A DNA stretch of 47,351 nucleotides from a virus, in the IMG/VR virus record IMGVR_UViG_3300037261_000019, positions 1 through 47,351 of that record. One strand, written 5' to 3'. Under the pieces are notes generated by a model. That model worked only from the letters and a program-made list of their open reading frames with translations, did not search any database and had not been told where the DNA came from. The first letter of the stretch is position 1. Each line of letters begins with the position of its first letter. This document shows positions 493-47,351 of this stretch, in pieces. The position numbers were made by a program, and so were the translations under genes.

Positions 493-1617
493 CTATCCAG
501 CGGCCTTATAGATGTCAATGAACGGTTTGAGCAGCTTAGCGTCGGGACGCGGGAGCTTCTCAAGCTTGCGCTTCTCCACTGCCATCTTGGTGGTGTACTC
601 GGCATGGATAGTAGCAACGTCCACGCCGACTTCATCGGCAGCGCGGAACATGTACTTCCAGTAGGGCTCCCAAGTCTTGTCATTCATGTTGTCAACGACA
701 TACTTGCTGAGCGTTGCGAGTACGGTGAACAGCTGGTCTGTTCTGTCGGGCATATTGGCGTGCATCGGGTCTGCCAAGATGTCCTTAGGGTCTGGCAAGT
801 CGAGGTCACGCGCAAACGTGAGGTACTCACTGCCAGCACCGGTACCGATTGCAGCCAGGAAACACTCGCCCTCAACCTCGTAGCCCATGCCAGCACTGCG
901 AGCAAACGCTGCGGTTCGGATGGCCATATCCCAGGAACGGGGTGACGGCCACGCTTTACCAGCCTGCGTTTCCTTGTCAGGCATGTTCATAAGCATGTGA
1001 GGCTTGGCACTCAAGAACCCTGCGACAACCATCTGGATGTCGCCCAGGTTCTTCTGTACATTGTCGGGGCGTACTTCAGGCATCACCATCGGCTGCCAAC
1101 CGTGCAGCAATGCCTGCACGTATTCAGCAGCGTCGGCCTCCCAGGGGAGATGCAGCATCCTGTTGGCGGCAGGAGCGGGAAGCTCGCGGCCACCTGCGGA
1201 TGCCTCGGGAGGGTTCGATGCCATTACGAAGCGGATGTCCGGGTGAAGCTGGAATCCGCCCATCTTGCGGTCCTGGATAAGCGTGAGCGCAGCAGCGATG
1301 TTCAACACCGGTGCCGTGTTCATCTCATCTAGGAACACCACGACAAGCTTGCCAGCTTCGGCAGCCTCGTTGCATTCCTGCGCCCACTCGTGCGGCGCAT
1401 ACTTCACAACGTCGTTCGACACCCAAGGGATACCGCCAATGTCTGACGGGTCCGAAGTGGCGAGGACGAGGGTGTACAGGTGCCCACCAACTGACTTGAC
1501 AAGCTGGTCAATGGTTTGCGTCTTGCCGATGCCAGGCAGTCCCCAGAGCATCGTCGGCGTGTTAGCTACCAACGCTGCCCGTAGCGTTTGCCGCATACGG
1601 GTATTTGTCTCGTTCAA
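493..1617 (-). CDS. MoxR-like AAA+ ATPase
   Basis: This 374-aa AAA+ ATPase has a Walker A motif GLPGIGKT at residues 26-33 and a Walker B motif VVVFLDEMN at about 92-100, followed by sensor-like Asn/Arg stretches. MoxR ATPases act as chaperones that remodel or activate targets together with VWA-domain partners, as in RavA/ViaA. The next gene downstream encodes a VWA/HEXXH metallopeptidase, so the two probably work as a pair. The ATG at 1617 overlaps the stop of the 74-aa gene upstream (ATGA), which suggests translational coupling. The biological target in the infected cell is unknown. Family assignment is firm, role is inferred. Confidence 0.9.
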   Translation of the reverse strand: MNETNTRMRQTLRAALVANTPTMLWGLPGIGKTQTIDQLVKSVGGHLYTLVLATSDPSDIGGIPWVSNDVVKYAPHEWAQECNEAAEAGKLVVVFLDEMNTAPVLNIAAALTLIQDRKMGGFQLHPDIRFVMASNPPEASAGGRELPAPAANRMLHLPWEADAAEYVQALLHGWQPMVMPEVRPDNVQKNLGDIQMVVAGFLSAKPHMLMNMPDKETQAGKAWPSPRSWDMAIRTAAFARSAGMGYEVEGECFLAAIGTGAGSEYLTFARDLDLPDPKDILADPMHANMPDRTDQLFTVLATLSKYVVDNMNDKTWEPYWKYMFRAADEVGVDVATIHAEYTTKMAVEKRKLEKLPRPDAKLLKPFIDIYKAAG

Positions 1618-3502: not shown

Positions 3503-3672
3503 CACGGTACCAAGTCGAACGCATGGCCGAGGGCACGGTCCCACATATCAACTAATGGGCCAGCCATCGCAAGATGCGAGAGGTTGGCGTAGACTTCGAT
3601 AGCCGTAGTCCAGCCAAACAATGCCTCTTGCTGCAAGGTGTAGATTTCTGCGGCTCTGTCGATATCCTTCAT
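3502..3672 (-). CDS. 56-aa helical protein, unknown
   Basis: It starts MKDIDRAAEIYTLQQEALFG and is predicted helical throughout, without cysteines or membrane segments. The ATG overlaps the upstream TAA (TAATG) and the stop overlaps the downstream ATG (TGATG). Both ends therefore follow the coupling pattern of this operon, the main support for it being a gene. Confidence 0.65.
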   Translation of the reverse strand: MKDIDRAAEIYTLQQEALFGWTTAIEVYANLSHLAMAGPLVDMWDRALGHAFDLVP

Positions 3673-3830
3673 TACCACTCACCCTCCTCGTGGTCGTCGA
3701 CTGCGATACGGTGGTCATCATCCTGGCACGTGCATGAACCTACTGCGCTGGCATGTGTGCATCCTACGATGATGCACCACCCGTATTTACTGCGCTCCTC
3801 GGGTGTCATCTGGCTCAGCAACTTCGCCAT
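3672..3830 (-). CDS. 52-aa Cys-rich protein, unknown
   Basis: Start chosen at ATG 3830, with GAGAGG about 9 nt upstream. The sequence MAKLLSQMTPEERSKYGW is followed by C-x4-C and then C-x-C, a possible metal site, and an acidic His-containing tail. The frame continues upstream to a TTG at 3902, but that part is opposed by another small frame and is probably not translated in this frame. Function unknown. Confidence 0.6.
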   Translation of the reverse strand: MAKLLSQMTPEERSKYGWCIIVGCTHASAVGSCTCQDDDHRIAVDDHEEGEW

Positions 3831-3900
3831 GGGTAGTAACCTCTCTAGGCGTAGGTTCATACGTGACAGGCGGTTGTCCTGGCACGGTGATGCTAGCCAC
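3787..3900 (-). CDS. Possible 37-aa protein overlapping its neighbours
   Basis: A GTG at 3900 lies 6 nt after a perfect AGGAGG and opens a 37-aa Pro/Thr/Glu-rich frame. It overlaps the 47-aa gene by 8 nt and the 52-aa gene by 44 nt. The ribosome site is the best in the area, but the long overlap and low-complexity product make this a weak call. The AGGAGG may only be coding sequence for Glu-Glu-Val of the upstream gene. Confidence 0.35.
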   Translation of the reverse strand: MASITVPGQPPVTYEPTPREVTTHGEVAEPDDTRGAQ

Positions 3901-4036
3901 AAGTAACCTCCTCACTGGAATACTGCCACTGATACAAGATACGGCCAACCTTGAGGCATCCGCATTGGAACGCTTCACAACCTATTTCGTTGTGGCGTTG
4001 ATTCAGATGTCCACACTCGCAGAAACCGCGTTCCAT
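3893..4036 (-). CDS. 47-aa small zinc-finger-like protein
   Basis: It starts MERGFCECGHLNQRH. Cysteines are placed as C-x-C near the N-terminus, then a single C and C-x-C, with histidines between, so it could form one compact zinc site. AGGAGGA lies 4 nt before the ATG. It is the first small gene after the tRNA-like element in this leftward chain. No family is recognised. Confidence 0.65.
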   Translation of the reverse strand: MERGFCECGHLNQRHNEIGCEAFQCGCLKVGRILYQWQYSSEEVTCG

Positions 4037-7795: not shown

Positions 7796-9648
7796 TGGCA
7801 CTTAGCCCAGAGAAACTCTATTCACGCGTTACCGAGGGTGACCTCATCGCCTGGCGTGGCTTCCGTATCCAGACTGGCCAGGAGTGGAAGGCACGCCTCC
7901 GACAAGTAGACCAGATGTATCGTGGTGACTGGCAAGAGATGTTCTCTGACCAATCCATGGTTATCGAGAACCCCATGGTGATGAATATGGTCCAGGTTGG
8001 GATGAACGACATCGCCAAACTGGTGTCTGAATCCGAGGGTTCTGTCCGATGCCTCCCCGATAAGGATACCAAGCAAGCCGAAGAGAATGCCCTCATTCGC
8101 CAGAACATCGGCCATACCTACTGGAACATGAACCGTGGAGAGGACCTCATCCCCCGCATCGCCATGGACCTCGCTGGAGGTGGCATGGCGGCTATCGGTG
8201 TCTGGGTAGACCCCAACGACTCCGATGATGATGACACTCCAGGAAAGCAGTACGGCGACTTCCCTTGCTACTCCCGTATCGACCCTCGTTTCGCCTATCC
8301 AGACGTCCGTAATGGCATACTCCAGGACATGCTGGTAGTCGAGGAGATGAACCTCCGCGTCGCAGCCCGTGAATTCCCTATGCTACACCTGGACTCAGAC
8401 CCCACCATCATTTCTAACAAGGTCGAGATTATGACCTACTACTCCAAGAAGGAGTGCCTCCAGGCAGTCCTTTGGCGCAACACCCAGGCCAAGGGCAACG
8501 TCATAGTGAACGTTGAGATTGTCTCCCGCTGGGACCCACAGGGTGTGCTACCAGTGGCCTTCGTTCAGTACGACAGCTGGGATGGTGCCATGCGCGGCAT
8601 CTTCGACCAGATGGGTGGCTCCCTGTTCACTAAGAACCGCATCGTGCGCCAGGTTATGGACTACATGGACGAGGTTGTGTACGCCCCACGTATGTCCAAG
8701 GGCGTCCTGAACCCTGACGAGCCCTTCTCACCGGACACGCATTACCGTCTAGACCCGAACGTGCCCCAGTCTATGATTGGCCGGGTGCCGCCTGCGAGCA
8801 CTATCCCCCAGGTTCTGGACATGCTGGAGTTCCTGGACAAGGAGCAGCGAGGCAGTGCCGCCTTCCCGGCCTCACGTCAGGGGGAAGTTTCCCAGGCTAT
8901 CGCTTCAGCCTCCTTCGTTGCTTCTACACAGGGCCAGCTGACGTCTGAAGTCAAGAACATCCAGCGCCTCATCGCCTCCCTTCGTCAACAGTTGAACAGT
9001 ATCTCCTACAGGTATGATGAGAAGTTCCTGGACTGGGAGAAGCCCCTTTCGCGGCCCATCGGCCGTAAGACGACTTACCTACCTAGCCGTGACATCGCCG
9101 GTAACTACCGAAACGACGTCACCTACGGCGCTGGCTCGGGCCTGGACCAGCAGTCCGCTGACGTCCGTACTCTCCAGCTCCTAGGTTCCCACGTCATCTC
9201 GCTGGACACAGCCCGCGAGCAGATTAACTTCATCACGGACCCGGACGGTGAGGGTGACAAGGTAGATATCGAGCAGACGATGAACGCAGTCATGCAGAAA
9301 TTCATGTCGGATGCAGACCTACCCTCACTACTCAAAGTCTTGGACTACCAGGCCAACCAAGGAGACGACCTCTCTACGGCTCTCACACGCCTCGCAGCTG
9401 ACCAGCAAGCCCAACAGGCCGCCCCCGGTGCTGCGGGTGCTCCTGGTGCTCCTGGTGCCCCGCAGGGTGGCCCTCAGGGTGCTCCTCCTGCGCCTCCTGG
9501 CCCGATGCAGGCCCAGACAGACCAACAGGCCATGGCCGCTGGTGGAACCACGCCTCCGCAGCCCACTCCCGGACAGTTCGCACCGCCTCCTGCAGAGGCC
9601 GTCCAGGTAGCCCCGGTTCAGGCGAACCGCACAGTCCAGCTACGTTAG
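7795..9648 (+). CDS. Portal protein
   Basis: The 617-aa product follows terL with a TAATG overlap, the standard place for the portal. It has the mixed helical and beta composition of portals: an N-terminal Trp-rich segment, a central region with Y-P-D-V-R-N and DPRFAYPD, and a long helical part near residues 350-420 rich in Gln and Ser. The last 90 residues are Ala/Pro/Gly/Gln-rich and probably disordered. The portal forms the dodecameric ring at one capsid vertex that docks the terminase and later the tail. The assignment rests on position, size and composition. Confidence 0.85.
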   Translation: MALSPEKLYSRVTEGDLIAWRGFRIQTGQEWKARLRQVDQMYRGDWQEMFSDQSMVIENPMVMNMVQVGMNDIAKLVSESEGSVRCLPDKDTKQAEENALIRQNIGHTYWNMNRGEDLIPRIAMDLAGGGMAAIGVWVDPNDSDDDDTPGKQYGDFPCYSRIDPRFAYPDVRNGILQDMLVVEEMNLRVAAREFPMLHLDSDPTIISNKVEIMTYYSKKECLQAVLWRNTQAKGNVIVNVEIVSRWDPQGVLPVAFVQYDSWDGAMRGIFDQMGGSLFTKNRIVRQVMDYMDEVVYAPRMSKGVLNPDEPFSPDTHYRLDPNVPQSMIGRVPPASTIPQVLDMLEFLDKEQRGSAAFPASRQGEVSQAIASASFVASTQGQLTSEVKNIQRLIASLRQQLNSISYRYDEKFLDWEKPLSRPIGRKTTYLPSRDIAGNYRNDVTYGAGSGLDQQSADVRTLQLLGSHVISLDTAREQINFITDPDGEGDKVDIEQTMNAVMQKFMSDADLPSLLKVLDYQANQGDDLSTALTRLAADQQAQQAAPGAAGAPGAPGAPQGGPQGAPPAPPGPMQAQTDQQAMAAGGTTPPQPTPGQFAPPPAEAVQVAPVQANRTVQLR

Positions 9649-10121: not shown

Positions 10122-13100
10122 TGCCAGTTATCCACGCCCCCGAGGGTGACGGACTCGACCAAACAGAGGCTCAGGCACAGGCCACCGCGCCTGTAGACCC
10201 TAACCTGGGAGAAGGTCTAGCCCAGAACCACACCGTGGCCCCTACCACGGCTATGCCTACTACCCCAGTCCAGCCCATCGAGGGCGAAGCCGGGGCTAAA
10301 CTGCCGAACCAGGTAGGGCTTGAACCTCCTGCGGACTCGCCCTCAAGCATGGGCATCGGTTCATCTCTGGCAGCCCCTGCCGCTGGCCTGGCTGGTACCC
10401 TGCCACGGCTTGAGAAGACTGACGCCATGCAGGGGAACAACGCCCCCTTCGACCAGTCCCTCTACAACAACTCAGAGGCCTTCAGGACCGCATACGCTAC
10501 GGACCCTCAGACCCTGAAGGATAGGGCTGCGCTGTTCACGCCAGAGGCCATCGCCCGCTTCGGCACGTCTATCGTTCACCTGATGATTTCCCAGCAGCCT
10601 GGACAGAACGTTCAGCACGTTGCCAACATCGTTAACTCCCAGGCCGACTGGCTGGAGAACAAGGACAGCTTCGCTGGTGTCAAGGGTGCTGTCACGGCAG
10701 CCCGAAGCGTGGCCATCTCCACGGGTAACAAGGACTGGCTAAACTTCATCAACAACGTCCAGGGTATGCCTGTGGATGAACAACAGATAGTCTGGGCTTA
10801 TATTTCTAACCCGAATATGAGCACAGCTCAACTACAGGCTCTGCATCTTCATACCTTCGGTGGCTTTAACGGAAACAACTCCGATACGAATACCCGTGGA
10901 CAACATGACCGAGGGGCTGGGCAGACCTCTCCAGGAGCAGAGGTTCTAACTTCGAATCCTCAAGGCACCGAGGCACCACAAGACCAGGCTTCTATCACCA
11001 GCGCTAGTATGCTTCAAGATTATGCCATTCGCTATCTGCAGACCTACTACCCTGGCCTTTTTCAACAACACGATGCAGGTTCCTATGGTGGCGGCCAGAC
11101 CTATACCTTGAACGGAGAAGCGCCTGATGCTCTATCGGTAGCTACAGCGCTCCGTGAGATGTCTCCTGATAGCGGACTTCAGTTCGGCCTGTCCTGGATG
11201 GACAACATGCGGACGCACAACGTGCTGCGCGGTGACCCAAACGCCATCCCTTACCTGGCCCGAGGGACCATGAATGTAGTCACAGCTGCAGCCCCTATCG
11301 CAATGGGCGCCATCTTCGGGCCAGCAGGCCTTGCAGTCTCCCTAGCTATCCCAGGAGCCTCTCACGCCCTTCGTTCCCTTGGTGGATGGCTGGCTACTCA
11401 GCACGCAAACGACCCGACCGGAGCCTTCTCTAAGACAGAGCAGGCTGCAGGCTTCGGTGTTACCCAATTAGGAGAGGCATTCAACCACGCGTCCCAGGCC
11501 GTTAGCTGGGGTATCAACGCCACCGTGATGAATGGTGTTCGTCACCTAGGAGTGGACACTTCTACCAAGGGATGGCAAGAGTTCCAGGGCCTCCTCACAC
11601 AGATTACTCTTATCGAGGCCTTCAACACGGTAGGTTCTGGTATAGAGGGTGCTAACGCGGGCGCCGACTACATGACGCCTGAGGCTGGAAGGGCAGCTAT
11701 CGGCATCGACCAGCCACTGACTGACACCAACTACAATGCTGGGCGCAACATCATCGGGCGATACGGAGAGTCCGTCGACCCTACTACCGGTGAGACTGTC
11801 CCCGCAACCCGACTAGACATCCTGAACCGCTGGTACACCAACCCCATCAGCTTCCTACAGAACGTAGCGATGCGTGCTGGTTTTGCCATGACCCAGATGA
11901 CTCCTGAGGAGTACTGGTCCAACGGTGATGGTGCTAAGTTCATCACGGTGATGGAGAAGGTCAAGGCCGACTATCCTGGAGACCCAGTGGCAGCAGCTGG
12001 CGCCCTGGAACGGCTAAGTAATGGGACCATTCCTCTTAACATGGCCAAGGACATCGCTGGGATGGATGCTACTGAAGTCCCCGGTTACATGCAGGAGTAC
12101 AACCGAGGCATCTCTGACGGCCGTGCCGCCATCCGTGACATCGTGAAGCGGAACGGTGAAATCTCCACCCGTCTGACGGAAATCCAAAACGAGCGCACCA
12201 CTCTTGAGACGAAGGTCCACGACACAGCCCAGGCAGTCTCTCAGGCCTACAACCCTGATGCCAATCTGGAGACCCTGGACGAGCTGCACGCAAGGCTGGA
12301 GGACAACCCTACCTTCCAGCAGATGGACCAGGGCTCCCAGGAAGCCTTCATCCAGCGCCAGATTGACACAGGTCGTGTCGCCAATGAGGGCCCCAACCTT
12401 TCCAACGACGCCTCTCCTCACTTCGAGCTTCCTCCCAAGGAGGCCGAGCTTGACCGTTTCGGGCAGCCTAAGGTTAACCCGTCCTTGGAGCCCCGTGAGA
12501 ACTTCAGCGTCCACGAGGATACACATGGCCTAGGTGATGCTGGCAGAAATGGGATGGACTTCGAGTTCAAGCTTCCCAGCGCGCACCCGGACGCCTTCCT
12601 GGATGTCACCGACGACGGTATGGGCAACTTTGAAGTCCACGGTGCCTCTGTCCCAGATGATGCTCAGAGTGGCCGAATTGGACAGCGCCTCTATGTCGAG
12701 GCTGCACGCCGTGCTGCCGAGCGAGCGGACGGGGTTCTACGCTCCGACCCCACGGGCGAGACTAGCACATCAGCTCGCCATGTCTGGGAGTCCCTCCAAC
12801 GCCAGGGCTTCAATGTTACTCAGGATGAGAGCGGCATCTGGACACTCGACATGCGCCCTCGTCTTCCTGATGGCTCCATAACCAGCGCGGATAACCCTGA
12901 GGGTAGCATCCAGGGTGTGCCAGACACCACTCCTCCCGAAGAGCCGAAGGTCTCAGGTACTGACCTGACGGTTGAGCAGCACGCTCAGGCTGCACGTGCT
13001 AACCTGGCTGAGTTGAACCGTCAGTCTCAGGTTGCACAGGACGCCTACAATCAGCACGTCCAGGACAACGCTCAGGAAGTAGCGGCCCTGCGTTCTGAGA

Positions 13101-16100
13101 TGCTGGACGCGGAGAACAAGGCGGCTGATGCCCTGGACAAGGCCCAGCGCCCGCCCATTATCAAGCACCCTGAGGTTAAGTGGTTCAGGAGCGCCATCCT
13201 CCGACCCCTCACCGTCACCCAGGATGTCTTCAATGCCCTCTTCGTCAAGGGCCTCGGCCACGTCGGCCTGAGTGCAGCTGGCTTCATCGACTCCCTGCCC
13301 AACGTAGCGGGGATAATCAACGGCTTCCACCCCGATGCCCCTCTGGACTGGCAGGACAGGAACGCCTCGGTCCTCGGTAACTGGCTCCGGGCCTCTGGGG
13401 CTGACGAGAACTTCATCTCCAGGACCATTGGAGAGATGGGGCAGCTCCGCTCCGCTGGTGAATTCGACCAGTGGATAACCAAGCTCGCTAGCGACGTGCG
13501 AGACAACATGGAACTCAAGGGTATCCCCCAGGACATGCGCGAGAAGCTCACCCGCTGGGGGGACCAAGGCACACGCCGAGCCCTGCCTGAGGTGACAGAC
13601 GGACGCTTCGACTTCACCGACGGCACGAGTGCTGCCCAGGGCACGCTACCTCTTACCATCAACGGGGAGGGTGTCGGCTCCAACCCTGCCTCTATGAACC
13701 CCTATGTCGAGCTGCCGAACCTGGACACCTACCGTGAGGCCACGGGCTTCCGCTCTCGCTTCGTTAAGATGGCTGGCGTCCTGCCAGGTAGTCTTGGCCG
13801 AGGTGCAGCTACCTTCGTCCAGAAGATGCTGATTGACTACCCTGACGCCATCACTCAGACGATGACCAACATCTTCAAGGGACCGTCCCTGGCCACCCAC
13901 CTTCCCTCGATGATTATGAGGACGCAGATTGAGCACGCTCTGAGGGCGTCTCAGTTCAACGATTTCCAGTCCGTCACCATGCTACCCGGAGGCCTACACC
14001 TAGACCCGTCAGCCGTAGGCGACTTCCTCTCCCATATCCCTGGTGTCAGTGGACAGGGTGTGAGTGACTTCCTCTCCAACTTCGCTGACCAGGCCAAGGG
14101 GGACGGCAAGATTACCCTGGTGCGTGAGGACCCTCGCTGGAAGATATTCACGGACCCGAAGAGGATGAACGTGGGCTCCTTCACCCAGGACCTGATGGTG
14201 GGCCGCCAGCCTACAGCTGCCGTGCCCACACCCACGGACTCCGTAACGAAGGGCGAAGCACCTTTCACTCCTCAGATGGCTGGCAGTATGGGTGCTGACC
14301 TGGCCACCGCCTACCACGATACAGTCCTTCGTTCCCTTGCCACTAACAACGGGGATGTGCAAGCTACTATCGACGAAATCAACGCGGCTGGAGGCCTGGA
14401 TGCCTTCACAGGAGGCCCGCTCTGGGCTGACGTGCGGCTGCACGACGGAGTGGCCACAGGCTCTAGCGATGAGCAAATCCTAAAGGACTTCGTTGAGCGC
14501 AAGGCGGCTCAACTCCAGTCCCTTACACGCTCCAATCCTGACCTGACGCATTACGTGGCCACGGGGAACATCCGGAACTCTGATGGTGTGGTCATCGCTG
14601 GACCTGATGCCGCTGTCTACAAGACCAACCTTGGAGAAATCCAGGCCCTGAACGACAACATCCGTACCCTGGCTGACAAGATTCACTCTGGCCAGGGAGA
14701 CTATGGAGACACTCAGACGTATCGTGCCCTGCAGGCTCAGCGCCGTGCACTGCTGGATGAGCAAGGACGGATTGAGGATAGCGCGCCTCCCGGCACCATC
14801 AACGGGCTCAAGGATGAGAGTTTCCGTGGCATCGGCAGCGCTGGGCGCCTGCAGGATAGACTTTTGCAGATGTGGCAGGCTGGACACCTGGACTTGCCTG
14901 ACACCATTAACATGCGGCCTACCTACTTCGGTGAGAACTCTGCAGCCAACTTGGAAGACGTCGGGGCGAAGTTAGGTAACGCGATGAACCGGGTGTTCAA
15001 GCTTGCGGACTGGGCTGACCGCAACATGACACGAGGCAACATGTACTATGATGCCTCCAACCGTTACGCCAGTGCCCTGGAGGCCTCGGGCCTCGACCAG
15101 GCCGATGCCCGTGCGTGGGGTGGCCTGATGGGTGCGCGTGAGACACGAGACCTGATGTACAACCTGGATGCCAAGACCTCGTTCCAGCGCTCTCTGAAGA
15201 ACATTTTCTGGTTCGAGCCAGTGACGCAGGACATGATGTACAAGTGGCTCGTCAAGATTCCTGCCGAGGTTGGCTGGAGTGGTGGCATGGGTGCCCTCGG
15301 TGACTGGGCTGCCGGTGGTGGCCTCCTGGCTGCCAAGGCTGCAGCCTGGTGGCAGCTACTCAAGACCGCTGGTGTCGTCAAGCAGAACCCGGAGGGCCAG
15401 TGGGTGGTCCCGGACCCGCTCCTGTCTGCCGTCGCGTCCATTGCTCACGGCAAGCAGATTACCTACATGCCGCTCAGCTCGATGAACCCGGTCCTTGGTG
15501 GCTCGGCCGAGACCAAGATTGGACCCTTCTCGCTCCCAGGCCTGGCCCCACTTCCTGCTTGGGCCGTGATGGAGGCAGCATCCAAGGGTGTCCCAGGAAC
15601 CTCCTGGCTGGCTAGTAAGTTCACAGGGGGCCCGGAGAGCGACACTATCCTCCCTGGCTTCTCCAACATCAACTACTTTTGGGAGGCCACCTTCGGCCAC
15701 CCGGCCCCCTGGATGGACCTCAGCCCCAGCTACCAACGTATGGTGGATGACAGGGCTCACGACTTCGCCATCCAGCGAGTCATCCAGGACTGGATTTCTG
15801 CAGGCAAGATGCCGCCTCGCCCTGAAGCCTTTGCCAAGACCTGGGACCCTACCACTAAGACCTGGACCCTGAGTGCCAGCGACAGGTCACGCTACCAAGC
15901 AGCCGTCACCGCCTACACCACCAACCTGATGAACGCTGCTAACGGGCAGTACAAGGTCAACGCCCTGACCCACGCCCTGGCCTCTTCATTCTCTCCTGGC
16001 TCCATCGAAATCTCCACCTCTGCCCGTGACGCCTACTACACCCTGCTTCAGAAGGTAGGCCTGAACACACCAGCTGCCAGAGCGGTAATGGCTCAGTACG

Positions 16101-17668: not shown

Positions 17669-19251
17669 TGACAATCACCCAGGCTGAGGCCTCTTCGTGG
17701 GAGGCATACTTTGCCCAGCAGGTTGGTGACTACATGGGATTGCCCCCTGATGAGTACACTATGGGTAAGGTCCATGTCATTCCCCAGAGTGAGTGGGGAA
17801 ACTACGAGGCCAAGTACGGGGCCGGGAACAGCTCGGCTTCGTTTACCGTTGGCTCAGACATCTACATTCCCTCTAACCTAAGCGCTCAGGAGTTCCAGGG
17901 CAGACTAGCCTACGAGCAGGTCCACGTTCAGCAGGGTACCAGTATCGGGGCTGGGGACACCACTAAGAACGGGAAACTTGTAGCTGGCCACAACGCCACC
18001 TTCGCTGAGGCCCAGGCTCAGGCCCTGAAGGTTAGGATGGGGTATGCCCTGCCAAACACCCTGGACGCCCTTGGCATGAAGTTCCTCGCACTGTCCCCTG
18101 AACAGAACGCTCAGGCCATGAAGAACCTGGCGCAGGGTGCGCCTGTGTTCAACGCCTCTGGTGGTGTCTACGGTGCCAACAACGTAATCGGAAGTGGAAA
18201 CGCAAACGCCCCGCGCCCAATAGGTGTAGGCGATATGGGGGAAACACCTCCCGGCTATGGACCTAGTGGGGCGTATCCAATCTCTCCTCTTGCTGGAGTG
18301 GGAAGTGCTGGCCCCAACGGAGCACCTAATGTTCCTGGCATTAAGCCTGTCACCACTGGACCTACTCCGCAGCAAATCCAGAACACGGAAAGCTCCTGGC
18401 TGAACCTCCTGAACTCCTGGGGTATGAAGCCCGACGCCTCACTGACCAACTGGATTGACTCCAACGCCAAGAACGGAGTGGGTTCGGCAACCTTCTTGAA
18501 CTGGGTACGGACCACGCCTGAGTACCAAAAGGCTTTCCCTGGTATCCAGGGCAGTGGCCTGTCTGAGGCTTCCTACCGCTCCAGGTTGAACGACTACAAC
18601 ACGGCTGCCGCAGCTAACGGTGTCACTATGACCCCCGCCCTCCAGCAGATGCTCTTCAACAACAACATCTCGTACTCCACAGCCAGCCAGCGCTTCCAGG
18701 CCGAGGCCTCTCTCAAGTCCAACCAGGCCCTCTTCAACGCTTTCAACAAGCAACTTGTCTCCGAGGGCCAGGCCCAGATGGGCAAGGGGGACATGCTTAA
18801 GTTCATCATGGGTGAGGGCAACGCCGCCTGGTACAAGACTTGGAACGACGCCAACTCGCGCTATGGTGGAAACCAGGCTGGTATCACCTTCAACGGTAAG
18901 GGTATGGGTGGCAACCCGGCGTCCAACGCTCAGTATACGAACCTGGGTAAGGGTGTCATCTCCACGGTGGCTGGCAAGGGCCTGTCCCCGGCCGAGGAGC
19001 AGCGGGGCTATCAACAGCTGGCGCAGCAGCTCACTACTTCCTACCCATTGTCCAAGATTCAGAAGTTCGGCCTCACTAAGGCTGACCTTGTTCAGCTTCA
19101 GTTCGGTGGACCACGCCAGGCCCATGTGGCTGGTATCGTTAAGCAGATTACTGAGAATGAAAGTAACATTGAGGACCAGAGCAACAAGGTCGGAGTTATG
19201 GGTATCGCTCCGTTTGGACAGGGTACTCAACAGGGCCAAGCACAAGTTTAG
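17668..19251 (+). CDS. 527-aa virion protein with degenerate zincin-like motif
   Basis: It starts in a TAATG overlap with the giant protein, so it is probably a second internal or ejection protein. Near residues 82-89 it reads YEQVHVQQ, which resembles the HExVHxxQ zinc motif of DUF4157-type peptidases with the first His replaced by Tyr. A following H-N-A-T-F-A-E-A-Q-A-Q-A helix supplies the usual downstream Glu. If the fold is right, the domain is probably inactive. The middle is Gly/Pro-rich (residues 170-240). The C-terminal half is helical with many Asn, Gln and Ala. Confidence 0.7.
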   Translation: MTITQAEASSWEAYFAQQVGDYMGLPPDEYTMGKVHVIPQSEWGNYEAKYGAGNSSASFTVGSDIYIPSNLSAQEFQGRLAYEQVHVQQGTSIGAGDTTKNGKLVAGHNATFAEAQAQALKVRMGYALPNTLDALGMKFLALSPEQNAQAMKNLAQGAPVFNASGGVYGANNVIGSGNANAPRPIGVGDMGETPPGYGPSGAYPISPLAGVGSAGPNGAPNVPGIKPVTTGPTPQQIQNTESSWLNLLNSWGMKPDASLTNWIDSNAKNGVGSATFLNWVRTTPEYQKAFPGIQGSGLSEASYRSRLNDYNTAAAANGVTMTPALQQMLFNNNISYSTASQRFQAEASLKSNQALFNAFNKQLVSEGQAQMGKGDMLKFIMGEGNAAWYKTWNDANSRYGGNQAGITFNGKGMGGNPASNAQYTNLGKGVISTVAGKGLSPAEEQRGYQQLAQQLTTSYPLSKIQKFGLTKADLVQLQFGGPRQAHVAGIVKQITENESNIEDQSNKVGVMGIAPFGQGTQQGQAQV

Positions 19252-40011: not shown

Positions 40012-40304
40012 TAAACCTCCTCATCCTCGGCGTGCTTGAGGACGAAGTCAGCGAGGCGCGCAGTCAGCGTCTCGACTTGCTTCTCGGTCGGGTCCCTGAA
40101 CTTGACGTTCCGCAACACGTTCGCTGCGTTGGTCGCAAGCTGGAGTGCCTGACTGAGCATCCCGAACTTGTCGCCCAGCGTCAGACGTTGGGTTGCCAGA
40201 CCCGCCGTCGGAGCCACTGGTCCCAGCCTCTCTTCAGCTGCCTCACGAGTTGCTGCCAACTGTGCAAGGTCAATTGCATCCTCCTCCTTAAACCGTTCAG
40301 GCAT
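40011..40304 (-). CDS. 97-aa helical protein, unknown
   Basis: Start at ATG 40304 with GAGGAGG upstream, overlapping the previous gene by 8 nt. It is helical and charged, with an A-x-x-x-A-T pattern in the middle and an acidic C-terminus (E-D-E-E-V). No cysteines or membrane segment. May be a small DNA-binding or regulator protein; no family recognised. Confidence 0.7.
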   Translation of the reverse strand: MPERFKEEDAIDLAQLAATREAAEERLGPVAPTAGLATQRLTLGDKFGMLSQALQLATNAANVLRNVKFRDPTEKQVETLTARLADFVLKHAEDEEV

Positions 40305-40518
40305 CTTCTTCCTCCTCTGTGTCGTTGATGTACGTCTCAAGCTCTGTCTGCGGTACGTGGTACCGTCGGTTCATTAATCCGCCCCGACCTTCCTCTGTGG
40401 TAGCAGGGCACCTTCCACCAAACACTGGGTCCCACCATCCCGCTCCATAAACCTGCCAGACATGTGTCAGGCATTTCCTACACACCATTGGCTCATCGCT
40501 ACCCTCAGTTGAGTTCAT
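40297..40518 (-). CDS. Small C2CH zinc protein, ELExY family (member 1)
   Basis: A 73-aa protein with M-V-C-R-K-C near residue 13-16, a third Cys in G-R-C-P and the C-terminal phrase H-V-P-Q-T-E-L-E-T-Y. The same C-x-x-C ... C ... H-x-P-x-x-E-L-E-x-Y layout is found in nine other small proteins at 43373-46355, but this one sits alone in the replication operon. Its N-terminus overlaps the nuclease gene by 14 nt. The tail is strongly acidic. Probably one zinc ion held by three Cys and the conserved His. Confidence 0.7.
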   Translation of the reverse strand: MNSTEGSDEPMVCRKCLTHVWQVYGAGWWDPVFGGRCPATTEEGRGGLMNRRYHVPQTELETYINDTEEEEDA

Positions 40519-42597: not shown

Positions 42598-42657
42598 CTT
42601 CCCTGTAGGTTCTTGGCATCATTCGTAAGGGCACGAAGGAAAGGATGGGTAAGCACT

Positions 42658-43389
42658 ATGGCTACAGACTTAGCATACATCTGCAAGGGTAACCAGGACA
42701 CTGGTCCCGGTTCAACGCTCCACTCCACCGGTCTCCCCGGTGACATCGCTATGCGCATCGACGCTCACGACGGCCCCTGGAAGTTAGAGGGCCCTGGCGC
42801 AGGTAACGCCTGGCGCTCACACCGCTTCGCTAAGCGGCACTTCGCAGAGGTCATCGTCAGTAACGGTGCTCTTGGTGACGTGTATCATATGGTGAATCAA
42901 GCGGTTACAATCAACTACCGTGTGGTCAGTGGTCTGACGACAGGTGAGAAGATGCTTGCCGATGAGAAACTCCACTTTGGTGATGATTACCTCCTAGGTG
43001 GCAACGCTCCCGGCCCGAGCGACTGCTCGGGTTGGACCTTGTATGAGGTCAAGAAGTACGCTGGCATCACGCTGCCACACTACACAGTCACGCAGTTCCA
43101 GGCCCTCGGTGGCAATGTCGGAGCATACCCGGAGCTTCATCAGGGTTCGAGCAGCCTCGGAAGTATCTTCGCCGACGAGTCCAAGTGCAAGCCTTCGGAT
43201 TTCGTGTTCAAGAGTTATCCGGACTTCGCCACTGCCTCTGATAACCCGGACCACGTAGGTCTTTGGGTTGCCCCCGGTATCATGCGTGACACTCGGTCGG
43301 TGTCCGAGAGGCTGGCAGATAGGACGATTGATGTCGGGCTGGGCCAGACGTTCTACGGTCGCATCTTTGCCATCAACGGCCAACTGTAA
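42658..43389 (+). CDS. NlpC/P60-type lysin
   Basis: The 243-aa protein carries an NlpC/P60 cysteine peptidase domain in its C-terminal half: catalytic Cys in S-D-C-S-G-W (C123), then L-P-H-Y-T-V-T-Q, and the His in N-P-D-H-V-G-L-W (H199). These enzymes cut D-Glu-diamino-acid bonds in peptidoglycan stems. The N-terminal half may bind the wall or be a small second domain. No signal peptide is seen, so a holin is needed for release. A start at 42613 is possible but the ATG at 42658 is better placed. It is the only plus-strand gene between two leftward operons. Confidence 0.85.
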   Translation: MATDLAYICKGNQDTGPGSTLHSTGLPGDIAMRIDAHDGPWKLEGPGAGNAWRSHRFAKRHFAEVIVSNGALGDVYHMVNQAVTINYRVVSGLTTGEKMLADEKLHFGDDYLLGGNAPGPSDCSGWTLYEVKKYAGITLPHYTVTQFQALGGNVGAYPELHQGSSSLGSIFADESKCKPSDFVFKSYPDFATASDNPDHVGLWVAPGIMRDTRSVSERLADRTIDVGLGQTFYGRIFAINGQL

Positions 43390-43660
43390 CCTCCTTCACA
43401 TAGGTGCGCAAGGCTTCTTCTGGCTCGTGTTCTGAGGTCCAGGTGTAGTCATTGCTAGTTGAAGCCTTGCCGTGTGGGCCACACCAATCTGATTCTACGT
43501 CCACTCCCGTTCTGAATTTCCTTATCTCCCACAACGAATGACTGGCTCCACCCTCTACGCCTCTGATTAAGGCTACCCACTGGCCCTTCCAGCAGTCATC
43601 TCTATCCTTCCTTCCTTTACGTAAGGCGTATCCGCACCATCTACATCTTGGGTGTCTCAT
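43373..43660 (-). CDS. Small C2CH zinc protein, ELExY family (member 2)
   Basis: The 95-aa protein has R-C-R-W-C at residues 5-9, a third Cys in D-W-C-G-P-H-G and the C-terminal H-E-P-E-E-A-L-R-T-Y signature, with E-L-E replaced by A-L-R. It is the last gene of the leftward accessory operon and its 3' end overlaps the converging lysin gene by 17 nt. ATGA overlap with member 3. Probably holds one zinc. Confidence 0.75.
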   Translation of the reverse strand: MRHPRCRWCGYALRKGRKDRDDCWKGQWVALIRGVEGGASHSLWEIRKFRTGVDVESDWCGPHGKASTSNDYTWTSEHEPEEALRTYVKEVTVGR

Positions 43661-43929
43661 TTCGCACCTGACTCTCTAGCGTAGGTAGCGAGGGCTGTCT
43701 CTGGGACGTGCTTAGTCTTGAGACCGGTGGTGTGCTTATCACCACACGTACAAGTGTGAGTCTCGGCACAAATTGCTTTGTGAGAGTAACTACGCCATCT
43801 TGCCTGCCATGTCTCTGGCTTCCAGGTTCTATACCCTCCCCACAAGCTCTCGTCCTCGTGCCTGGTACGTCCAGCCCTGTCCACTTGGACGAGGGCTGCA
43901 TGGCACTTAGCGCACCTTGGGAACTTCAT
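43657..43929 (-). CDS. Small C2CH zinc protein, ELExY family (member 3)
   Basis: 90 aa: P-R-C-A-K-C at residues 5-9, later C-T-C-G-D-K-H, and C-terminal H-V-P-E-T-A-L-A-T-Y. AAGGAGG before the ATG. Overlaps member 4 by 23 nt and member 2 by 4 nt. The middle is Trp- and Arg-rich, unlike its neighbours. Confidence 0.75.
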   Translation of the reverse strand: MKFPRCAKCHAALVQVDRAGRTRHEDESLWGGYRTWKPETWQARWRSYSHKAICAETHTCTCGDKHTTGLKTKHVPETALATYARESGAK

Positions 43930-44113
43930 CGCTTACCTCCTTTGCATACCTTTCTAGTTCAGGCATGGGCTCATGGTCATGCCAGTCTTCGGTTGTCTGA
44001 CAAGTCCACAGGTCACCGGTCGACCAGGCTGCATACCATTCATCCGGTTGCCCAAAGCCCCATTCAAACTTAGCCAGGGCCAGCTTGCAGAACCTACACC
44101 TAGGGGGTCTCAT
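43907..44113 (-). CDS. Small C2CH zinc protein, ELExY family (member 4)
   Basis: 68 aa: P-R-C-R-F-C at residues 5-9, one Cys in W-T-C-Q-T, and D-H-E-P-M-P-E-L-E-R-Y at the C-terminus. Its N-terminus (M-R-P-P-R-C-R-F-C) is close to that of member 2 (M-R-H-P-R-C-R-W-C), the clearest sign of common origin. AGAGAGG precedes the ATG; the start overlaps member 5 by 14 nt. Confidence 0.75.
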   Translation of the reverse strand: MRPPRCRFCKLALAKFEWGFGQPDEWYAAWSTGDLWTCQTTEDWHDHEPMPELERYAKEVSDEVPKVR

Positions 44114-44357
44114 TAACGTACCTCTCTAAAGCGCTGGCAACCTGATGGTCTCCCGGGTAGCTTTCCGCAGTGACGGCAGGGGCCGTACTTGAGCACACTG
44201 GGCACGGTATCCATTCTCCATCCTCCCTCACTCTAGCGTCGTCCACCGGGTGACAATAGGCACCCTTTTGTGGACGGATGGCATCAGAGGAGTACCTGTG
44301 AAACTTGTTGACGGGTACGCCTTCTTTGTTCACTTCAATTTTCGTTGACCAAACCAT
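44100..44357 (-). CDS. Divergent ELExY-family zinc protein (member 5)
   Basis: Start at ATG 44357 with AAGGAG upstream, 85 aa. It lacks the N-terminal C-x-x-C; instead Y-C-H-P occurs mid-way and W-I-P-C-P-V-C near residue 55, so the metal site is arranged differently. The C-terminus keeps A-L-E-R-Y-V-N-E-T, preceded by G-D-H. It sits within the array and is probably a rearranged relative, though convergence cannot be excluded. Confidence 0.65.
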   Translation of the reverse strand: MVWSTKIEVNKEGVPVNKFHRYSSDAIRPQKGAYCHPVDDARVREDGEWIPCPVCSSTAPAVTAESYPGDHQVASALERYVNETP

Positions 44358-44389
44358 CGCCTTGCTCCTTATTGACATACACCTGTGTG

Positions 44390-44629
44390 TCATTCGTCCT
44401 TCTTCAGGTATCGTTCAAACTCTGTCTCAAGTACGTGTGGAAAACCTTCCAAGGTACTCGCGTCCGCTCCCGCGTCGTGGCGAAGCCGGATACAGTTGAA
44501 GCTCCAACGGTAGCTAGGAATATCTAGGTCAGGAGCAGGATGGACAGTCATCCACTCACTTCCGTTACCACCGAGCATGATAGCACGCTTACAGTATTTG
44601 CACCGCGGGTACCTAAACCCCTTCTGCAT
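44390..44629 (-). CDS. Small C2CH zinc protein, ELExY family (member 6)
   Basis: 79 aa from ATG 44629 (AAGGAGG upstream). Y-P-R-C-K-Y-C at residues 7-13, a Cys in F-N-C-I-R-L-R-H, and F-P-H-V-L-E-T-E-F-E-R-Y at the C-terminus. The His of the H-x-P motif is present but its Pro precedes it. It follows a long hairpin and is separated by 32 bp from member 5. Confidence 0.75.
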   Translation of the reverse strand: MQKGFRYPRCKYCKRAIMLGGNGSEWMTVHPAPDLDIPSYRWSFNCIRLRHDAGADASTLEGFPHVLETEFERYLKKDE

Positions 44630-44658
44630 CCCGTGCCTCCTTATCAAGCCCTTCGAGT

Positions 44659-44689
44659 GCCCTGGCTAGGTATCGAGCCTAACCAGGGC
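44659..44689 (-). terminator. 11-bp interrupted hairpin after the secreted-protein gene
   Basis: GCCCTGG (44659-44665) pairs with CCAGGGC (44683-44689); after one mismatch TAGG (44667-44670) pairs with CCTA (44678-44681), loop 7 nt. It lies 8 bp after the stop of the secreted protein and 30 bp before member 6. No T-run follows, so partial termination is likely. Confidence 0.6.
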
Positions 44690-44696
44690 TGTGATG

Positions 44697-45308
44697 CTAG
44701 TTACACGTGTCCTTAGCAACGACCGAAACGAATGCCAGTCGGTGACCAAGCGCACGCACAGAGATGCTGGAACCCTTGTGCAAGGGTGGCGTCTCAAACT
44801 TCTTGCCCCACGCACCGGCCACGCTGTATGTCTTCACCTTAACACCAAGGTCAAGGGTACGACGATACCGGACGGTGAAGGTAACCGGGGTGTTGCTCTT
44901 ACTGTTGTCCAGGGTAACCTCGTAGCGAGGGTCCGAACAACGGACGTAGCTCAGGCTCGCAACAGGCATCCGCACACACGCAGTAGGGGCGAGCGTGACG
45001 GTGGCCGTGTTCTCGGAGCGGTTCTCGCCCAACGTCGCGTAAGCAGACACGGTAACACTCGCCGTACCATTAGGAACCACGAAGGTCCAGGTGGTGTCGG
45101 TAGAGTGCTGCGTGTCGCCGGTGACGTTGTTACTGAACGCTACTGAGTCGCCGTTTCCAACGCCGTGTGCAACGGCGGTGACCACGGACTGCCCAGAGGT
45201 GCAGGCAGAGCTAGCCGTGACACTGGTAATCGTGCAGGCTAGTGCGGCGGTAGCGGTGGCAAGAACTACAGCGATAGCGAGTGCTGTCGCCTTTACTACT
45301 CTCTTCAT
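44697..45308 (-). CDS. 203-aa secreted protein with Ig-like composition
   Basis: Start at ATG 45308, GAAGGGA upstream, in ATGA overlap with member 7. It opens with a textbook Sec signal (K-R-V-V-K, then A-T-A-L-A-I-A-V-V-L-A-T-A-T-A-A-L-A, cut before C-T-I). The mature part is Thr/Ser/Val-rich with strand patterns such as T-W-T-F-V-V-P-N-G-T-A-S-V-T-V-S-A-Y, like an Ig or Big domain, and has six cysteines that may form disulfides. A phage-made exported protein may coat the host, bind wall polymers or block other phages. It interrupts the zinc-protein array. Confidence 0.75.
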   Translation of the reverse strand: MKRVVKATALAIAVVLATATAALACTITSVTASSACTSGQSVVTAVAHGVGNGDSVAFSNNVTGDTQHSTDTTWTFVVPNGTASVTVSAYATLGENRSENTATVTLAPTACVRMPVASLSYVRCSDPRYEVTLDNSKSNTPVTFTVRYRRTLDLGVKVKTYSVAGAWGKKFETPPLHKGSSISVRALGHRLAFVSVVAKDTCN

Positions 45309-45517
45309 ACACTTCCCTTCGTCGTACGGACATCGAGATATCTCTCGAATTCTGTAATGGGCTCGTGCCAATGCCATCCCCATGAGACGTCGCCGAGCAA
45401 CACTGGTCTTCCAGGACATTTGTACTGATGGCATTCCCAGTAGCCTTGGGCGTCTATCCATTTCATGGACATTATGATAGGAACATGACAGTGTCTACAG
45501 GTATCCGTGGGGTACAT
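45305..45517 (-). CDS. Small C2CH zinc protein, ELExY family (member 7)
   Basis: 70 aa from ATG 45517 (AGGGAG upstream). T-C-R-H-C at residues 6-9, then E-C-H and K-C-P-G in the middle, and H-W-H-E-P-I-T-E-F-E-R-Y near the C-terminus. Overlaps the 88-aa gene by 23 nt at its start and the secreted gene by 4 nt at its end. Confidence 0.75.
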   Translation of the reverse strand: MYPTDTCRHCHVPIIMSMKWIDAQGYWECHQYKCPGRPVLLGDVSWGWHWHEPITEFERYLDVRTTKGSV

Positions 45518-45761
45518 ACCCACTCTCCCTGCGCTGTCCCATGATGGTGGCAAGTTCCTCAATCCGTTCCTCATCTAGGACGAGGGCGAACGGGACAGAG
45601 CGATACAGACACTCGCCCTTGCTTTCGATAGTCTGAGCGGCAGCGAAGATAACGGCCAGTCGCTCGGTACCGAAGGGGCCGAACACGATGTGGTTATCCT
45701 CACATGTGACAGCCCAGGGCTCGAAGCCCTTGAGCCTTTCCTGTAGCTCCTTAGCATCCAT
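45495..45761 (-). CDS. 88-aa protein inside the zinc array, unknown
   Basis: Starts MDAKELQERLKGFEPWAV with GGAGG upstream. It lacks both family signatures. It has a helical N-terminus, a N-H-I-V-F-G-P-F-G-T-E-R strand-turn and a long helix with L-D-E-E-R-I-E-E-L-A. Overlaps member 8 by 11 nt and member 7 by 23 nt. No family is recognised; it may be an unrelated insert in the array. Confidence 0.7.
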   Translation of the reverse strand: MDAKELQERLKGFEPWAVTCEDNHIVFGPFGTERLAVIFAAAQTIESKGECLYRSVPFALVLDEERIEELATIMGQRRESGYVPHGYL

Positions 45762-46005
45762 TTACATACACCTCCAATTCGGATATTGGTTCGTGCGCGA
45801 AGTCGTTGGTTGGGTTCGTCCTAAGGTGAAGGTCACCTTTGTCGCGTGTCAGGGCGTCATATGTTGGCCAACGATTCAAGTTCTCACGACTGCCGGGGCA
45901 GGCTCCCACCCAGCGGGTGTAGTCTGTGCGGCCATCTGGGTAGACAGCGCACATACTCAGCCCACCTTCACCCAATGTCAGACCGCACTTCCTGCAAAGC
46001 GCCAT
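45751..46005 (-). CDS. Small C2CH zinc protein, ELExY family (member 8)
   Basis: 84 aa from ATG 46005 with GGAGG upstream; the open frame to 46287 lies across other members and is not used. L-C-R-K-C at residues 3-7, a third Cys in G-A-C-P-G-S, and F-A-H-E-P-I-S-E-L-E-V-Y at the C-terminus, the fullest form of the motif. It overlaps member 9 by 38 nt. Confidence 0.78.
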   Translation of the reverse strand: MALCRKCGLTLGEGGLSMCAVYPDGRTDYTRWVGACPGSRENLNRWPTYDALTRDKGDLHLRTNPTNDFAHEPISELEVYVNGC

Positions 46006-46171
46006 GTAGATACACCTCCAAGTCTGTCGCCATAGAGTGAGGCTTGTCCTTGGAAACAGAACAACCCATTGCCCACCAGCTAAATACTGTGGACGAGCCG
46101 TCTGCAAGGGTGAGTTGCTGCCAGCATATCTTGCACCATTTGATAGGCGGTGGCTCACACTGACTTGGCAT
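45968..46171 (-). CDS. Small C2CH zinc protein, ELExY family (member 9)
   Basis: 67 aa: W-C-K-I-C near residues 12-16, G-C-S-V mid-way, and P-H-S-M-A-T-D-L-E-V-Y toward the C-terminus. E-L-E appears as D-L-E. It overlaps member 10 by 17 nt at its start and member 8 by 38 nt at its end. GGAG lies 4 nt before the ATG. Confidence 0.72.
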   Translation of the reverse strand: MPSQCEPPPIKWCKICWQQLTLADGSSTVFSWWAMGCSVSKDKPHSMATDLEVYLHGALQEVRSDIG

Positions 46172-46355
46172 AGGTCTCCAGCTCCGTCTCTGGTTCGTGG
46201 TATCCGCCGCGAGGTGCCGAGCCTATGGGAGGGCATCCGTATAAATACTCTCCATCCTTGGGATTGATAAGCTCCCAGAACTTCCACTCACTTCCACCAC
46301 CAGCGGTCTTTTCTTGGATATCGCGCTTGCATTTACGACACACTGAGATACGCAT
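46155..46355 (-). CDS. Small C2CH zinc protein, ELExY family (member 10)
   Basis: 66 aa from ATG 46355 (GTG 46361 is an alternative two codons upstream). V-C-R-K-C at residues 5-9, Y-G-C-P-P in the middle and Y-H-E-P-E-T-E-L-E-T-Y near the end. First gene of the array, 15 bp after the metallopeptidase stop, so it is probably cotranscribed with MoxR and the metallopeptidase. Confidence 0.75.
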   Translation of the reverse strand: MRISVCRKCKRDIQEKTAGGGSEWKFWELINPKDGEYLYGCPPIGSAPRGGYHEPETELETYAKSV

Positions 46356-46370
46356 GGTCACAGTCCCGTC

Positions 46371-47351
46371 TCAGTCCCTAATCTGGATTGTCTTGGCGTA
46401 GGCAGGTCCATCCTGGTTGGTGTTCCCGATGATGCCTACGATTACCTTCATCCGCTGCGGCTCAGGGCCCCAGCCAGTGTAGCCATCTGTAAGCACGATG
46501 CAGACATCGACGTTGAGCTTATCGCAGGCATCGACGCCCTTGGACATATCGGTGCCACCACCACCGGGCAGAGTACCGATGCTCTTAGCATCCCATACCT
46601 GCTTGACGGAGTGGACATCCCAGTCGACTGCAAGGATGGTCGTGGGAACACGGCCCGCCGCAAAGTCGATGACGCCACGGACCTCGGCAAGACACTCAGC
46701 AAGTTCCTTTGTGCCCATCGAACCAGAGGTATCAATCACGATACCAGTCGTGATGACTGGCGACGTGGTAGCCGGGAAGATTAGGTCTCCTTGGCCATGA
46801 CGCCTGCGGTTCTGTCGGCGGTACGTGTAGTCGTCGGGTCCAGAGCAGGAGGCGATTGCCTGCTTGACTACGGCAGTCAATTCCTTGCGCCAATCCACTT
46901 TCGGGTGTAAGAGTTCTTCGGCCCAACGGTCCAGGCCACCCGTACCCTCACCACGTTCCTTCGATGCCAGGACGTCCTCGGCCACCTTGCGCCGAAGGAT
47001 GTCCTTCTCAAGCTCACCGATGCCAGCGGGGCCATCCTCCTTCTCCTTGTCACCGTTGCCCGCAACTGTACCGCATTGCGGGTCCGTGACTTCATTACCC
47101 TTGCCGGTGCCCGCTTGGCCCGGCTGGAGGATGGTTACCTTGTGAGTAGGCATCCCGTTGTAGTACGTCTCAGCTGTGAGCCATTCTTTCTGGCCCAAGG
47201 CTTCAGGATAAACGCCTCCCGCCGGTAATTCAATCTTTTCTTTGCGCAGGTCGTCGTTGATTTCAGCGTCGGCCGCAACATTCCACGCCCTTGCGTCGGC
47301 ACCTGATGGCATGCGCTGCAGGTGATTTCGGATGACGTGGTGACACTCGTG
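46371..47351 (-). CDS. VWA-domain metallopeptidase, C-terminal part (starts at 346 across the junction)
   Basis: This holds residues 74-399 of the gene that begins at GTG 346 on the circular map (the repeated 127 bp is shared). The von Willebrand A domain shows the metal-ion-dependent adhesion motif D-T-S-G-S (about residues 280-284) in G-I-V-I-D-T-S-G-S-M-G, then a later G-G-G-G-T-D-M and V-C-I-V-L-T-D-G. A Gly- and Lys-rich linker near residues 150-180 separates it from the HEXXH domain. It is the MoxR partner in this operon. Confidence 0.85.
   Translation of the reverse strand, partial: HECHHVIRNHLQRMPSGADARAWNVAADAEINDDLRKEKIELPAGGVYPEALGQKEWLTAETYYNGMPTHKVTILQPGQAGTGKGNEVTDPQCGTVAGNGDKEKEDGPAGIGELEKDILRRKVAEDVLASKERGEGTGGLDRWAEELLHPKVDWRKELTAVVKQAIASCSGPDDYTYRRQNRRRHGQGDLIFPATTSPVITTGIVIDTSGSMGTKELAECLAEVRGVIDFAAGRVPTTILAVDWDVHSVKQVWDAKSIGTLPGGGGTDMSKGVDACDKLNVDVCIVLTDGYTGWGPEPQRMKVIVGIIGNTNQDGPAYAKTIQIRD
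47225..47351. repeat. Terminal direct repeat, right copy (circular overlap)
   Basis: Identical to 1-127. Trimming one copy gives a 47224-bp circle in which the metallopeptidase gene reads through without a break. Confidence 0.95.

Follow-up and report, generated by a model that had tools for sequence, protein, structure and literature searches.

An array of diverged zinc-type paralogs with a constant C-terminal tail beside the MoxR and VWA genes of an uncultured tailed phage

Known zinc-protein expansions and the array family

The closest described precedent for the locus reported here is the expansion of zinc-ribbon (ZnR) proteins in Bacillus phage G, with about 35 published copies and a proposed role as transcription factors or DNA-binding structural proteins (PMC7824862). 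The same source treats MoxR-VWA pairs as chaperone and co-chaperone and proposes a role for them in virion assembly in jumbo phages. One archaeal virus genome carries multiple Acr paralogs (PMC11065993). Precedent in the literature was found only for the phage G expansion and for MoxR-VWA, and the portions of two papers that we covered describe no such zinc array alongside the MoxR and metallopeptidase-vWA pairs of jumbo and N4-like phages, the type to which the neighboring pair at our locus belongs.

In our own search, phage G gave 36 ZnR profile matches, mostly in one tandem block at ~353-371 kb (for example gp32, YP_009015343.1), and the five members examined (92-118 aa) are composed of an N-terminal zinc module, a diverged middle and a constant C-terminal helix (YWKENDRYLAKILSK). 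In the array described here, too, zinc proteins have multiplied within a single phage lineage and carry a constant C-terminal helix. The two differ in ligand pattern, the phage G proteins being C4 ribbons (CPIC...C...C) and the array C2CH (CxxC with a third Cys and a His further on), and in the tail, which reads YWKENDRYLAKxLSK in phage G, unlike the ELExY tail of the array. Alignment of the two families with hhalign gave a probability of 2.5% with only the CxxC knuckle aligned, so no homology was found; 40 of 500 column shuffles were as good as the real tail comparison (p about 0.08), and neither family's profile found a match in the other's genome. The kind of array, many diverged zinc paralogs in one phage that are absent from its relatives, is thus already known, and the sequence of this family is without a match in the databases searched.

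The window, by which we mean the whole 47,351-nucleotide stretch analyzed, is the complete genome of an uncultured tailed phage, closed by a 127-bp terminal repeat; its INPHARED relatives by TerL are too remote to support an actinophage host. The ten short minus-strand ORFs that an earlier note on this sequence had listed were all found in place. Nine lie at 43373-46355: g9 (46155..46355, 66 aa, CxxC...C...HEPETELETYA), g8 (45968..46171, 67 aa, CxxC...C...HSMATDLEVYL), g7 (45751..46005, 84 aa, CxxC...C...HEPISELEVYV), g6 (45305..45517, 70 aa, CxxC...C...HEPITEFERYL), g5 (44390..44629, 79 aa, CxxC...C...HVLETEFERYL), g4 (44100..44393, 97 aa, ...HQVASALERYV), g3 (43907..44113, 68 aa, CxxC...C...HEPMPELERYA), g2 (43657..43929, 90 aa, CxxC...C...HVPETALATYA) and g1 (43373..43660, 95 aa, CxxC...C...HEPEEALRTYV). 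The detached member g10 (40297..40518, 63-73 aa depending on the start, CxxC...C...HVPQTELETYI) lies apart. Starts judged better are 46355 for g9, 46005 for g7, 45517 for g6 and 44629 for g5.

That these ORFs form one strongly diverged paralogous family, as the earlier note had it, is borne out by leave-one-out HMM searches of the 898 ORFs in the window, in which each left-out member was ranked against all ORFs outside the training set. With full-length profiles the left-out member ranked first in 10/10 runs (E 1.5e-10 to 0.069, g8 being the weakest). A profile of the C-terminal tail alone also recovered 10/10 members, well beyond a chance match, and the body before the tail alone only 5/10, from which we describe each protein as a Cys-rich body that has diverged strongly, followed by a tail that has stayed constant. 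Cysteine makes up 4.9% of array residues versus 0.9% in the phage's other genes.

The signature originally proposed for the family had to be loosened. A CxxC near the N-terminus is present in nine members but not in the deviant g4, which has only a mid-protein CPVC; H-x-P holds in seven but not in g8, g5 and g4; and a strict E-[LF]-E is found in six but not in the other four. Invariant in all ten are the His, the Tyr, a Leu or Phe three residues N-terminal of the Tyr and a small hydrophobic residue after it, and the restated motif is H-x(3)-[STPE]-[EDA]-[LF]-[EAR]-x-Y-[AVLI]. The zinc-type C2CH ligand order is present in 9/10 members, zinc binding itself being predicted. Divergence among the members is saturated, so that selection for diversity is inseparable from age plus drift.

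Searches for relatives left the family as unrecognized as the earlier note had found it. Pfam, PHROGs, NCBIfam and PADLOC profiles gave no significant match to any member, and sequence-profile searches of PDB chains at E up to 10 gave none, including to TraR/DksA and classical zinc fingers. No relatives were found among INPHARED phages, related viral contigs and sampled genomes; tblastn of INPHARED with g9, g7, g6 and g10 and a profile search of 695 bacterial genomes (two samples, 13-18 candidates scored per genome) also gave no match. The exact HEPxxELExY pattern at the DNA level gave 6 matches in IMG/VR and 40 in GTDB, all in unrelated proteins or frames and none with an upstream CxxC.

Operon layout and constraint on the tail codons

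The array is positioned directly downstream of a MoxR-type AAA+ ATPase (493..1617, minus strand) and an HExxH metallopeptidase-VWA gene, consistent with the early-type operon next to MoxR that had been proposed. The VWA gene (minus strand, 46371..47351, continuing over the genome ends to ~430; PF13203/PF09967) lies directly upstream of g9, matches DUF2201_N (E 7e-36) and VWA and carries HECHH, and the MoxR gene is immediately upstream of it on the circular map. An NlpC/P60 lysin-type gene on the plus strand (42613..43389), which overlaps the end of g1, separates g1-g9 from g10 and the rest of the early region. The nine genes are neighbors, as claimed, but the array is not uninterrupted: one minus-strand non-member (45495..45761) lies between g7 and g6 and overlaps both, and a second (44697..45308), whose start resembles a secretion signal in sequence, lies between g6 and g5. 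The first of these is retained in a syntenic relative (G046), which also has TerL, portal, tail genes, primase and exonuclease in common with the phage; the array family has no member in G046 or in the other relatives examined, and the exonuclease used as a query found no relatives. GC3 is 0.56 in the array versus 0.69 in the core genes.

Most array junctions are gene overlaps of 4-38 nt with Shine-Dalgarno-like sites, and translation of the genes is probably coupled within one early operon. In g9, g8, g7 and g4 the GGAG/GAGAGG site that serves the downstream start falls within the motif codons, as would be expected if ELExY were kept as a ribosome-binding site for the next overlapping gene. 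We consider this origin of the motif very improbable. The four genes g10, g5, g3 and g6 retain E-[LF]-E though the next start lies elsewhere, the Tyr and His are invariant yet irrelevant to such a site, and the conserved residues use varied synonymous codons (six different codons for Leu; TAT 6 and TAC 4 for Tyr). As the sole cause of ELExY the site is largely refuted on these grounds; in four genes it may be an additional constraint. The synonymous variation points to selection on the protein and not to copied DNA, and no long DNA repeats remain among the array genes.

The same observations bear on whether the ORFs might be functionless paralogs that are decaying or, for the most part, not translated. 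Such decay would fit the weak members g4 and g8 and also g6 and g1, whose best codon score is not in their own frame, but the ligand residues and the tail are kept at the protein level through synonymous change and the ORFs are intact, tightly packed and provided with ribosome-binding sites, and we give it hardly any credence.

Predicted fold and candidate function

Two predicted models of moderate to low confidence (pLDDT 74.4 and pTM 0.59; 61.5 and 0.53) show three short strands and a C-terminal helix in the same order, and so do not suggest unrelated folds for the members. The helix begins at ELETY in g9 and at ALRTY in g1, so that in these models the ELExY signature is the start of the C-terminal helix, and an [ST]-x-x-E helix-capping pattern is found in 7/10 members. 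Fold searches with the models gave no significant match. The best BFVD hit, Mycobacterium phage Phabba gp50, has a CxxC...W.H...H.x.P order; it differs in its non-significant score (E 0.26), in being without the ELExY tail and in having related proteins in only three phages.

A purely structural tail, in which an N-capped helix packs on the zinc mini-fold and carries no docking information, has in our view close to an even chance of being correct. Both models place the tail as the C-terminal helix, and the hydrophobic Leu, Tyr and Tyr+1 positions together with the capping box account for most of the conserved residues. However, five members have a recognizable tail but not a recognizable body, which exceeds expectation for a core-only role. 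This reading is confined to the tail, and several functions of the body would be consistent with it.

For the proteins as a whole, our best explanation, held tentatively and at somewhat less than an even chance, is that a single small ancestral zinc protein multiplied within this lineage into a set of early, host-directed binding proteins with a common helix. The CxxC knuckle, third Cys and His are predicted most likely to hold one zinc ion per copy, followed by a variable middle and then a constant amphipathic helix opened by ELExY. The variable bodies would bind different host proteins in takeover or counter-defense, and the common helix would complete the mini-fold, with a possible second role in docking to a single shared partner. 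Arguing for such an expansion are the recovery of members by the full-length and tail profiles compared with the body; the matching element order of the models with the capping pattern and the hydrophobic residue after Tyr; the overlapping genes with Shine-Dalgarno-like sites and the Cys enrichment; the absence from G046 despite synteny together with the lower GC3; and the comparable phage G expansion and archaeal Acr paralogs (PMC11065993). Points against it are the missing knuckle of g4, the modest model confidence, the lack of a significant fold match and the saturated divergence. No homolog or structure assigns a target to the array proteins. The anti-defense role put forward in the earlier note is a plausible candidate; no homolog to a described system was found, PADLOC being empty.

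Alternatively, the proteins could be small nucleic-acid-binding regulators, whether transcription factors or structural proteins that bind DNA, a role suggested for the phage G expansion (PMC7824862). Binding to DNA or RNA is common among zinc modules, but the array proteins are for the most part neutral or acidic (net charge -5 to +1, the exceptions being g1 at +3 and g2 at +7), no HTH or known DNA-binding domain was matched, and the PDB sequence search was empty. We regard this role as unlikely, though worth weighing.

The MoxR-VWA neighbors and comparable arrays

The direct adjacency of the array to the MoxR and metallopeptidase-VWA genes raises the possibility that its products are adaptors or substrates of that pair, with the VWA protein as the docking site of the tail and with different clients brought in by the variable bodies, and the chaperone function ascribed to such pairs would suit this. 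A small CxxC ORF directly follows the VWA stop in 13/86 VWA viral loci versus 63/727 other long genes (p 0.046) and versus 18/331 in control contigs (p 0.004), comparisons in which the ORF lists include spurious ORFs and several control contigs themselves carry a VWA gene. Similar arrays of small zinc-type paralogs with one common helix motif lie beside VWA in three other MoxR-VWA contigs from IMG/VR, L195 (IMGVR_UViG_3300033551_000280), L028 (3300025164_000134) and L018 (3300019458_000073), and in L195 and L018, as here, the first small gene immediately follows the VWA gene. However, the tails of the different arrays are not homologous, and array frequency is 3/94 VWA loci versus 0/45 control contigs, a non-significant difference on which we rejected the proposal of such arrays as a general feature of MoxR-VWA phages. 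On balance we think an adaptor or substrate role improbable.

An extended version of the same idea, more speculative still, holds that the array proteins are interchangeable adaptors whose helix docks on the phage's MoxR/metallopeptidase-VWA machine while the bodies bring host proteins for remodeling or cleavage, unrelated phages having arrived at this arrangement with tails of their own. The combination of zinc module, diverged stretch and constant C-terminal helix occurs in no fewer than three phage groups unrelated in sequence (the array phage, Bacillus phage G and L195). If this plan is convergent, the constant helix would serve as a handle for retrieving the shared partner and the variable parts would lead to the targets, so that simple pull-downs could be used to test a set of early phage genes that carry no annotation. 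Should the tail be purely structural, what remains is a new orphan family of the ordinary kind.

None of the three IMG/VR arrays showed homology to the family described here. That of L195 is of C2H2 type with a C-terminal ...HKExxLxxRLAK, and those of L028 and L018 represent another version, in which the common motif, ALxILAGxxCxxC, is N-terminal.

A divergent family with a constant tail

The array is a single family of ten small minus-strand genes; nine, numbered in transcription order, run from g9 to g1 (46355 down to 43373), and the tenth, g10, lies at 40297-40518. All ten ORFs described in the earlier note were found with their marks, and the claimed order of these marks holds for nine, which have an N-terminal CxxC, at least one further Cys, and then the His and the C-terminal tail containing ELExY; it fails for g4, which has no N-terminal CxxC. 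The tail is better described by the consensus H-x(3)-[STPE]-[EDA]-[LF]-[EAR]-x-Y-[AVLI], of which the His, the Tyr and the hydrophobic residue C-terminal to the Tyr are kept in all ten. Of the residues in the array proteins, 4.9% are cysteine, versus 0.9% in the rest of the phage's genes. Third-codon-position GC in the genes at 43373-46355 is 0.56, compared with 0.69 in the phage's large genes.

Profiles were built from nine members and the left-out tenth was ranked among the 898 window ORFs. The left-out member was the top non-training ORF in 10/10 runs, with E values from 1.5e-10 to 0.069. Tail-only profiles also recovered it every time, so that the C-terminal match is better than chance, as the earlier note had proposed to check; profiles of the body (the Cys-rich part N-terminal to the tail) recovered it in only five cases (g1, g2, g3, g5 and g9). 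Constancy thus resides in the tail, whereas five of the ten bodies have either diverged past recognition or been swapped. Conserved residues are encoded by varied synonymous codons across members and no long DNA repeats are left among the copies, which indicates that the copies are old or very fast-evolving and points to selection acting at the protein level.

Predicted structure and possible roles

The fold and zinc site of the array proteins are predictions. AlphaFold models of g9 (pLDDT 74.4, pTM 0.59) and g1 (pLDDT 61.5, pTM 0.53) were built on the ten-row family alignment. Unrelated folds had been named as evidence against a family; the two models instead agree in the order of their elements, starting with the CxxC region, continuing through short strands and a loose segment of variable sequence, and ending in a C-terminal helix. 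The helix opens with ELExY, which accounts for its first one and a half turns. An S/T-x-x-E capping pattern is present in seven members, and the Leu/Phe, the Tyr and the following residue line up as a single hydrophobic face, so that the signature may be a structural one. A fold search against solved structures and viral models gave no significant match, the best viral model being Mycobacterium phage Phabba gp50, with a similar Cys/His order (E 0.26, non-significant).

The same plan occurs in Bacillus phage G, for which a comparative jumbo-phage study gives ~35 zinc-ribbon copies (PMC7824862). In the five copies examined, a zinc module is likewise followed by a middle part that has diverged and by a constant C-terminal helix, here YWKENDRYLAKxLSK. 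A profile built from these five matched 36 copies in NC_023719 (352.9-371.0 kb of the record; also L301 12154-19107), mostly in one tandem block. Profile comparison of the two families found no relationship, and comparison of the tails no clear one.

We tentatively favor host-directed binding, in takeover or counter-defence, as the likeliest role of these diverged proteins with a predicted zinc site; a role as nucleic-acid-binding regulators ranks second and is rather doubtful.

Gene layout and distribution

The window, an IMG/VR virus record of 47,351 bases, has an exact 127-bp direct repeat at its two ends (1-127 and 47225-47351), which indicates a complete genome of ~47.2 kb, terminally redundant or circularly permuted, which also codes for a terminase (phrog_38), a collagen-like tail fibre, a primase/helicase and an exonuclease. 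The circular map reads MoxR ATPase, HExxH metallopeptidase-VWA gene (PF13203, E 7e-36; PF09967, E 9e-17), g9, g8, g7, an unrelated gene (45495-45761), g6, a secreted-type gene and g5-g1. The VWA gene runs across the genome ends, with its HECHH motif close to the junction. The secreted-type protein (44697-45308, minus strand, ~200 aa) had no significant match in a family search, and an NlpC/P60 lysin-type gene (42613-43389, plus strand) follows g1 within the early minus-strand region. g9 begins ~15 nt past the VWA gene, and most junctions in the array show overlaps of 4 to 38 nt together with Shine-Dalgarno-like sequences. At four junctions the site falls within tail codons; the tail is also retained in genes whose codons carry no such site. 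The jumbo-phage study also describes MoxR with a metallopeptidase-vWA co-chaperone in jumbo phages and proposes a part in virion assembly (PMC7824862). That the array proteins are adaptors of the neighboring MoxR-VWA machine is possible but improbable.

No array relative was found in Pfam, PHROGs, NCBIfam, PADLOC or PDB sequences, in INPHARED by tblastn, in IMG/VR and GTDB genomes by DNA pattern, in viral contigs selected via TerL, VWA or primase by profile, or in 695 sampled genomes by shallow profile search; the family profile re-finds all ten members in the window. The INPHARED phages searched include no close relative of the phage itself. The viral relative G046 is syntenic (TerL 39%, primase 45%, exonuclease 30%) and has a homolog of 45495-45761, the unrelated gene between g7 and g6, with ordinary small genes and no member at the array position. 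Given this absence from the relatives searched, the expansion is either peculiar to this lineage or came from phages that have not been sampled.

Small-protein arrays at other MoxR-VWA loci

Among contigs selected by the VWA gene alone, IMGVR_UViG_3300033551_000280 has seven C2H2-type paralogs around that gene (3529-3750, 3747-4025, 8949-9179, 11989-12237, 12231-12503, 12503-12796 and 12999-13286), one beginning directly past the VWA stop. They share a constant C-terminal end, ...HKExxLxxRLAK, and gave one weak PHROG match. Downstream of MoxR-VWA, 3300025164_000134 (11152-13643 and 17895-18343) and 3300019458_000073 (10881-12649) have small CxxC protein arrays whose shared motif, ALxILAGxxCxxC, is N-terminal instead. 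Across viral VWA loci (L016-L029 and L181-L259), a small CxxC ORF lies directly past the VWA stop at 13/86; the figures are 63/727 (p 0.046) for other long genes and 18/331 (p 0.004) for control contigs, and whole arrays occur at 3/94 loci versus 0/45 controls (non-significant); because the ORF lists contain spurious frames and some controls also hold VWA, recurrence of such arrays beside MoxR-VWA is a lead rather than a result. In L183 and L218, for example, the small CxxC ORF has a 4-nt overlap at the VWA stop.
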